Part shown: positions 12,375 to 14,477 of the stretch, in pieces
Layout of the letters: each line of letters begins with the position of its first letter
Position numbering within the stretch: position 1 is the stretch's first letter
Assembly (NCBI RefSeq): GCF_008017755.1
Contig: NZ_VRTS01000002.1
Coordinates: 310,001 to 374,000, forward strand
Source of the DNA: Alkalisalibacterium limincola
GTDB lineage: Bacteria > Pseudomonadota > Gammaproteobacteria > Xanthomonadales > Xanthomonadaceae
Direction: 5' to 3'
DNA length: 64,000 bases
The notes under the pieces: generated by a model
Told to the model about the DNA's origin: nothing
Database searches by the model: none
The model's input: only the letters and a program-made list of their open reading frames with translations
Position numbers and translations under genes: made by a program

Positions 12375-13741
12375 ATGCCGTTCATTCCCCATAGTGATGC
12401 CGACGTCCGCACCATGCTCGAGGCCATTGGCGTCGACAGCATCGAGGACCTGTTCGACGAGATTCCCGCCGAGCTCAAGATCGAAGGGCTGGCCGGCGTG
12501 CCCGACGGCCTCAACGAGATGGCGATCAATCGGCTGATGGCCGAGCGCGCGCGCCTGGACGAGGCCCACCTGAACTTCGCCGGCGCCGGTGCCTACGAGC
12601 ACCACATCCCGGCGGCGGTCTGGCAGATCGTCTCGCGTGGCGAGTACTACTCCGCCTACACGCCGTACCAGGCCGAGGCCAGCCAGGGCAACCTGCAGCT
12701 GATCTACGAATACCAGACGATGATGACCCGCCTGACGGGCATGGACGTCTCCAACGCCTCGATGTACGACGGTGCCACGGCGCTGGCCGAGGCGATCCTG
12801 ATGGCCGAGCGGACCCAGCGGCGCAACGCCAAGCGCGCGTGCTGATGCCGGTGTCGGTGCACCCCGCCTACCGCAAGACGGTCCGTTCGATCCTGGAGCT
12901 CCAGGGCATCGCGATCGAGGAGATCGATTGCCCGGACGGCCGCCTGGACGTTGCCGCGCTCGAGAAGCTGGACGGCGAGTTCACCAGCCTGGTCGTGCCG
13001 CAGCCGAACTTCTTCGGCGTGCTCGAGGACGTCGACGCGCTGACCGATTTCGCCCACGCACGCGGCGCCCTGGTCATCGCGGTGGTCAACCCGATGAGCC
13101 TGGCGGTGCTCAAGGCGCCCGGGCAGTGGGGCAGCGAGGTCGAGGGCCTGCGCGGCGCCGATATCGTCTGTGGAGAAGGCCAGCCGATGGGTGTGCCGCT
13201 GTCTTCCGGCGGCCCCTACTTCGGCCTGCTCGCCTGCCGCCAGGCGTTGGTGCGCGACCTGCCCGGTCGCATCGTCGGCCGCACCACCGACCTGGACGGC
13301 AAGCCCGGTTTCGCGCTGACGCTGCAGGCGCGCGAGCAGCACATCCGCCGCGCCAAGGCCACGTCGAACATCTGCACCAACCAGGGTCTCCTGGTCACGG
13401 CGGCGACGATCTACATGGCGCTGATCGGGCCGGAGGGCCTCACGCGCGTGGCCGCCCAGTCCATGGCGAACACCCGCAAGCTGCGGGCACGGCTGGAACG
13501 CATCAGTGGCGTGCGGGCACTGTTCCCGGAGCAGGTCCATTTCCACGAGGTGGCGTTGCAGCTGCCGCGCCCGGCAAGCGAAATCATCGAGCGTCTTGCC
13601 GCCCAGCGCATCGTCGCCGGCGTGGCGATCGGCGAGGAGTATCCCGGCCTCGGTGACGCGCTCCTGGTGTGTGCCACCGAGACCAAGACCGACGACGACA
13701 TCGAGCAGTTCGCGCAGGCACTGGCCGCCGCGCTGGACTGA
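12375..13741 (+). CDS. gcvPA: Glycine dehydrogenase (decarboxylating) subunit 1, one frameshift
   Basis: This is the N-terminal-half subunit of the split P protein, which with GcvPB decarboxylates glycine and loads the aminomethyl group on GcvH. Conserved stretches are [25 protein letters not shown], the [14 protein letters not shown] motif and [11 protein letters not shown]. The reading frame breaks near 12833-12841; one added base gives [12 protein letters not shown] and a protein of about 455 residues, the standard GcvPA length. No GcvPB (the PLP-binding subunit) follows it here, as the downstream 736 bases hold no gene. Confidence 0.9.
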
Positions 13742-14112: not shown

Positions 14113-14141
14113 TTGACACGTGGTTTGCACGTGATTAGCTT
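14113..14141 (+). promoter_or_regulatory. Putative sigma-70 promoter ahead of the candidate small RNA
   Basis: A perfect -35 hexamer TTGACA is followed after exactly 17 bases by TAGCTT, a weak -10. The spacer holds the inverted repeat CACGTGGTTTGCACGTG, which could be an operator. Placed about 185 bases before a strong terminator with no gene between them, it may start a small RNA or an attenuated leader of the downstream histone-like gene. Confidence 0.45.
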
Positions 14142-14147
14142 TCGCCC

Positions 14148-14330
14148 AGCAGTCTCGGTTAGCGCGCAAAGGTGAATTTGGAAAACTCAGTGTCAGGGGC
14201 AACGGCCAAACGGTCGCCCGAAAATTCCTACACCATCGACCTGGAGAAAATCGCTCCGGGAAAGCCCGAGTCTCCCCCGCTTCCGTACCCCCATCGCAAC
14301 GCCCGCGTCGAAATCGACGGGGGCGTTTTT
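14148..14330 (+). ncRNA. Candidate small RNA or transcription attenuator
   Basis: About 180 bases lie between a TTGACA promoter and a textbook intrinsic terminator and contain no credible gene. The 3' half shows a hairpin CTCcGGG-aaag-CCCGAG (14254-14270), then two unpaired C runs (CCCCC at 14274-14278 and 14288-14292), then the terminator. C-rich unpaired segments are a known mRNA-contact feature in some xanthomonad small RNAs, but no known family was recognised. Because the histone H1-like gene begins 148 bases later on the same strand, the terminator could instead attenuate that gene. Ends are estimates. Confidence 0.45.
14298..14330 (+). terminator. Strong rho-independent terminator without an upstream protein gene
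   Basis: The stem AACGCCC (14298-14304) pairs with GGGCGTT (14321-14327), with an inner CGTCGA/TCGACG helix and a T5 run (14326-14330). It ends a rightward transcript, although the nearest rightward protein gene stops more than 550 bases upstream. Confidence 0.85.
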
Positions 14331-14477
14331 CGTTTCCAGCGGCGCGTTCCACGGCGTCGTTCCGATCCACTGGCGCGACGTATTCACGCCAGGCGGCTCA
14401 CCGGCGGTCGTACACCCCCGGTGGTTTGACCCAGGCCTGGGAAAGGCAAAGTCAATTGACGAGGAGTTGGACGAACC

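Follow-up and report, generated by a model that had tools for sequence, protein, structure and literature searches.

Attenuators of the trp, his and thr type combine a promoter, a leader frame, hairpins and an intrinsic terminator, and in these leaders the stop codon of the frame is located well before the terminator. In pyrBI of Escherichia coli the terminator lies inside the 135-bp gene of the leader peptide (pyrL) and is suppressed when a translating ribosome follows closely on the polymerase (PMC4824070; PMC5021804). The Xanthomonas small RNA sX13, which adjoins polA and is highly conserved, with C motifs in three apical loops, acts via its C-rich loops (PMC3771888). As for the control of methionine metabolism, a survey of its regulators published in 2014 recorded SamR in the Xanthomonadales and confined MetJ to six other groups of Gammaproteobacteria (PMC4239095).

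The locus considered here is from Alkalisalibacterium limincola and is part of a window of 64,000 nt (the whole stretch of DNA that was analyzed). We propose, with a probability of roughly 0.55, that it is the 5' leader of a gene for a histone H1-like protein, that it would operate by translation-coupled attenuation of the pyrBI kind, and that it stands where a MetJ domain once was. As in pyrBI, the intrinsic terminator is within the leader frame and the stop codon is beyond the terminator. The two sequences are unrelated, however, and the downstream gene here specifies a nucleoid protein, whereas in pyrBI it serves pyrimidine synthesis. In addition, no conserved U-rich pause tract was noticed here, and the leader is longer (198–411 nt, or 66–137 codons, among relatives) and is found at the place that MetJ takes in another family. 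The trp, his and thr attenuators share with this locus the promoter, leader frame, hairpins and intrinsic terminator, but here the frame passes through the terminator and no alternative antiterminator was identified. An attenuator of the amino-acid operon type was rejected because no stop codon in frame 0 is found upstream of the terminator in 84 relatives. The features of the locus are collected in Table 1.

Table 1. Positions in the window of the features of the leader and of the H1-like gene that follows it.
Feature	Position	Strand	Remarks
-35 box TTGACA	14113-14118	+	unchanged across 40 aligned relatives
Spacer repeat CACGTG..CACGTG	14117-14133		
Conserved core GTGATTAGCTTTCGCCCAGCAG	14131-14152	+	spacer end, -10-like box, discriminator, first transcribed bases
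-10-like box TAGCTT	14136-14141	+	TAGGTT in the majority of relatives
Leader ORF, GTG start, 85 codons, TGA at 14427-14429	14172-14429	+	open in 84/84 relatives
Hairpin P2 (GGTCG/CGACC)	14212-14241	+	within leader frame; relatives keep the stem, bases differ
Local hairpin CCTGGAG/CTCCGGG of the sequence-only reading	14240-14260	+	seen in the sequence
Two C5 runs (14274-14278, 14288-14292)	14274-14292	+	Pro codons of leader frame
Intrinsic terminator, stem 14300-14325 and T5 14326-14330	14300-14330	+	inside leader frame
Second hairpin CACCGG/CCGGTG	14399-14423	+	where many relatives have a stem ~45-55 nt before H1
Junction relic similar to the final codons of MetJ (..PTDEELRRT)	14450-14477	+	7.3 bits here, up to 22.8 in relatives
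Histone H1-like Lys/Ala-rich protein, 156 aa	14478-14948	+	NF038053 and HC2 below cut-off

The TTGACA box and its 17-nt spacing from the -10-like TAGCTT, both pointed out in an earlier reading made from the sequence alone (herein the sequence-only reading), are present and belong to a promoter core that is conserved across the family. The discriminator within this core is C/G-rich, and the RNA would start near 14147–14149 (about 14148). The core has no other match in the window at up to three mismatches (0 expected), and a pattern search found these 22 nt in 167 of the 297 genomes of the window's family, nearly always as a single copy, with the reversed pattern, which served as the control, almost empty. 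A 65-nt sequence model of the promoter element matched nearly all of the genomes of the window's family in the sample of the order and recovered a genus that had been partly missed by the 22-nt pattern as a result of a one-base insertion. The same model gave one match at a convincing score in the window's genome, and the collection contains no further genome of its genus. According to the loci that were fetched, the promoter element precedes an H1-like gene rich in Ala and Lys by ~260–470 nt, and none was found in a search of plasmids. The inverted repeat that had been reported in the spacer does exist, but among 84 loci the double CACGTG is confined to the window's genome. An additional promoter immediately 5' of H1, looked for by eye, was dismissed as the spacing differs among relatives, and GcvPA was unhelpful as an anchor for retrieving loci, returning mainly distant bacteria. 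A perfect met box, AGACGTCT, lies just past the start site in two leaders (L127 and L128) and AGACGTTT is present in many relatives; this occurs at the start of the leader despite the lack of MetJ in the window's family and may be due to chance within the 5' hairpin.

The neighbors of the element are gcvPA and the H1-like gene. The H1-like protein scores 21.7 of the 80 bits needed for NF038053 and 15.5 of the 40 bits for HC2 (PF07382), the curated cut-off being reached in neither case, and its likeness to these two families is of the composition type only. On the other side, the gene for glycine dehydrogenase subunit 1, gcvPA, is broken into a pair of overlapping plus-strand frames (12375–12845 and 12839–13741) corresponding to the first and the second part of NF001696, respectively, representing a frameshift that is either real or a sequencing error. 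The window also contains a manganese riboswitch of the yybP-ykoY type (RF00080; 5273–5374, minus strand, 50.1 bits).

The stretch that follows the promoter had been taken for about 180 bases without a gene, and this has to be corrected, as the 85-codon GTG frame runs right through it. This reading frame is the element that the sequence-only reading missed, yet it holds most of the evidence. It crosses the terminator and ends 48 nt before the H1-like gene. Between the GTG and position +141 there are no stop codons in frame 0 in the 84 relatives, compared to 48.7 ± 6.9 expected from shuffles, and 45 and 26 in frames 1 and 2, respectively. Between +144 and the point 62 nt ahead of H1, a boundary that was picked after the stop positions had been seen and for which frames 1 and 2 are the control, the same relatives have none in frame 0 (23.9 expected) and 18 in each of the other two frames. 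The corresponding values for frame 0 in a non-redundant set of 43 members are 0 versus 26.4 and 0 versus 11.4 expected. The frame-0 stops are concentrated right before H1, with 79 of 84 within the last 62 nt (six frames examined), and in 61 of the 86 loci a TGA in phase with the GTG is located 16–21 nt before H1. The start codon itself is conserved in nearly all of the ~90 leaders, with a few lacking it (L112 and L199), and is preceded by a weak ribosome-binding site in 25 of 84 leaders, including that of the window.

Could the frame simply encode a fast-evolving small basic protein in an operon with H1? The open frame, the conserved start and an N-terminus rich in Ser, Thr and Arg would be expected of such a gene, but its length is anything from 66 to 137 codons, its reading phase shifts between genera and its product matches no family in Pfam or NCBIfam. 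Moreover, there is no constraint at the codon level. Nothing points to selection on the peptide because substitutions among the relatives are spread evenly over the three codon positions, with no codon-position bias, and frame 0 shows no excess of synonymous changes over the other two frames. The G+C content at third positions is likewise modest (0.68 in the leader versus 0.81 in H1). We consider a protein-coding gene of this kind to be very improbable. What the alignments indicate is a frame selected for its openness with a peptide that is free to change, and since openness is kept while the peptide is unconstrained, it fits what a ribosome track needs.

The strong terminator was also identified correctly. 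Its GC stem has a predicted stability of −19.9 kcal/mol, and 74 of the 84 relatives have a hairpin followed by a T run at this site, versus 17–20 in shuffles. The phase between terminator and start is constant in many genera and altered in some lineages, so that a fixed GTG-terminator phase is not claimed here. The local hairpin and the two C5 runs that had been proposed to precede the terminator are all present in the window, but neither is conserved. A stem at the place of that hairpin is seen in 12 of 43 relatives where 15 are expected, which is not above chance. A C5 run is found in 19 of the 84 loci (22.6%, compared to 15.4% after shuffling) and is thus barely more common than chance; in the window's leader frame the two runs fall in the codons CCC CCG and TAC CCC CAT. 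Hairpin P2 recurs in 33 of the 43 relatives of the non-redundant set versus 8.4 expected, with stems such as TCCRCC/GGTGGA, CCATCG/CGATGG, TCGATC/GATCGA and CGTCC/GGACG, and one might speculate that it is a pause hairpin. Many genomes have a hairpin resembling a tRNA T-arm, for example GCGGGTCCGACTCCCGC, between the terminator and H1, ~45–100 nt before the latter (L107, L157, L160 and others).

These results bear directly on the suggestion of an independent small RNA with C-rich seeds, which is not upheld. A stand-alone, trans-acting RNA of ~182 nt, possibly with a dual function through the leader frame, would be in keeping with the separate promoter, the terminator and the conserved hairpin, and there is a precedent for C-rich loops in sX13 (PMC3771888), which is from related bacteria and has C-rich runs, a terminator and an RNA length of similar order. 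The C runs at this locus, however, are restricted to a few genomes and in the window specify proline, the body of the element diverges except for one hairpin, and an open frame extends through it. Folding of the whole 177-nt transcript is no better than that of shuffles (z −0.84), RNAalifold gave no consensus fold for 59 leaders, and no Rfam family matched at the element with either gathering or permissive thresholds. Identity with sX13 itself was rejected, as the element is not downstream of polA but between gcvPA and the H1-like gene, where H1 is the associated locus, and as its C4/C5 motifs are not conserved. A small RNA acting on its own is therefore improbable, and a discrete terminated RNA of ~182 nt may be produced as a by-product.

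We propose instead that the element is a leader controlled by its own translation. The conserved promoter would generate an RNA starting near 14148, on which ribosomes would initiate at the GTG at 14172, translate through the intrinsic terminator and stop near the ribosome-binding site of H1. A ribosome close behind RNA polymerase would prevent the terminator from forming, and hence the polymerase would continue into H1 with the translating ribosome finishing beside the H1 start. If translation of the leader were slow or failed, transcription would end at 14330 and there would be no H1. The suggested control of the nucleoid protein by premature termination is supported in its architecture, in that promoter, leader and terminator are observed to be conserved together before H1 in nearly all of the relatives sampled, and it is from this architecture that we infer translation of the leader, termination in vivo and the regulation of H1, that is, the control itself. 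The main rival to attenuation is simple coupling, in which the frame would be open only to allow translational coupling to H1 by re-initiation and to protect the RNA against Rho, with the hairpin terminating part of the transcripts constitutively at a fixed, unregulated ratio of leader to H1. This would explain why, in all loci, the frame stays open beyond the terminator until no more than 61 nt from H1, and why in most of them its stop is at the ribosome-binding site of H1, but the conserved terminator and the early hairpin P2 suggest more than coupling, and we regard this alternative as rather unlikely.

How such a leader might have arisen is indicated by a second family of the order, f12 (f12, f3 and f8 are family labels in the genome collection's own numbering), in which weak matches of the 65-nt model revealed the same promoter upstream of a MetJ-H1 gene. 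This gene is a single frame in which the first ~80 codons are MetJ and the remainder is an H1-like tail, with MetJ (PF01340) at the front of the H1 protein giving E values of 4e-37 and 2e-38. MetJ matches are present in 51 of the f12 genomes, all in long frames of 137–278 aa, and the fusions, one per genome, are found behind this promoter in L191–L194, L215–L230 and L238–L241. Three more families have MetJ in shorter frames that are without an H1 tail in the loci that were read. In the window's family MetJ is found in 0 of 297 genomes, the leader product does not match the MetJ profile (PF01340), and no MetJ domain is left in the leader or the genome of the window. In f8 (L203–L211) the sequence TAGACGTTTATATGG, possibly an autoregulatory met box, is right at the start of the stand-alone metJ.

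Profiles of the promoter, the MetJ body and the MetJ C-end were built from f12 loci and run on 84 leaders of the window's family. The promoter profile matched 71 of them (best 15.6 bits, shuffles at most 6.3) and the C-end profile matched 83 (best 22.8 bits, shuffles at most 4.5), while the profile of the MetJ body had no matches. The C-end matches fall in the 75 nt that precede the start of H1, where the f12 genes code for the end of MetJ. The junction in the window contains the GAGGAG ribosome-binding site of H1, and its own resemblance to metJ is weak if taken alone. Since a MetJ-like junction has been kept and MetJ is missing from all 297 genomes, the leader appears to occupy the place of a lost MetJ repressor domain, which we tentatively take as decay of metJ, although its replacement would look alike. 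The sequences are most simply read as an initial fusion followed by loss of the repressor domain in the window's family, because the codons at the junction belong to MetJ and are also present in its stand-alone genes. A locus in a third family (L195 in f3) has a similar promoter, a leader frame of 59 codons and an H1-like gene preceded by TTTACCGGGCG, and is perhaps another case of MetJ loss.

No report of the leader or of the MetJ-H1 fusion was found in the literature, where open-access papers were covered, which is no proof of novelty. Taking these observations further, it is a tentative possibility that a MetJ-H1 protein lost its SAM-dependent repressor domain in the ancestor of the family, that the place of this domain was kept only as a terminator-bearing ribosome track, and that control of the nucleoid protein thereby passed from a repressor domain of the methionine pathway to a sensor of translation. 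The MetJ-H1 fusion would connect methionine control with nucleoid proteins, and the leader would be a rare traceable case of a gene that has lost a repressor domain but retained its promoter and junction. The reading frame would be conserved for its openness and not for its product, and both gene finders and RNA finders would misread it. If the proposal is true, a protein that packs the chromosome would be governed, throughout the family, by a switch that senses translation.
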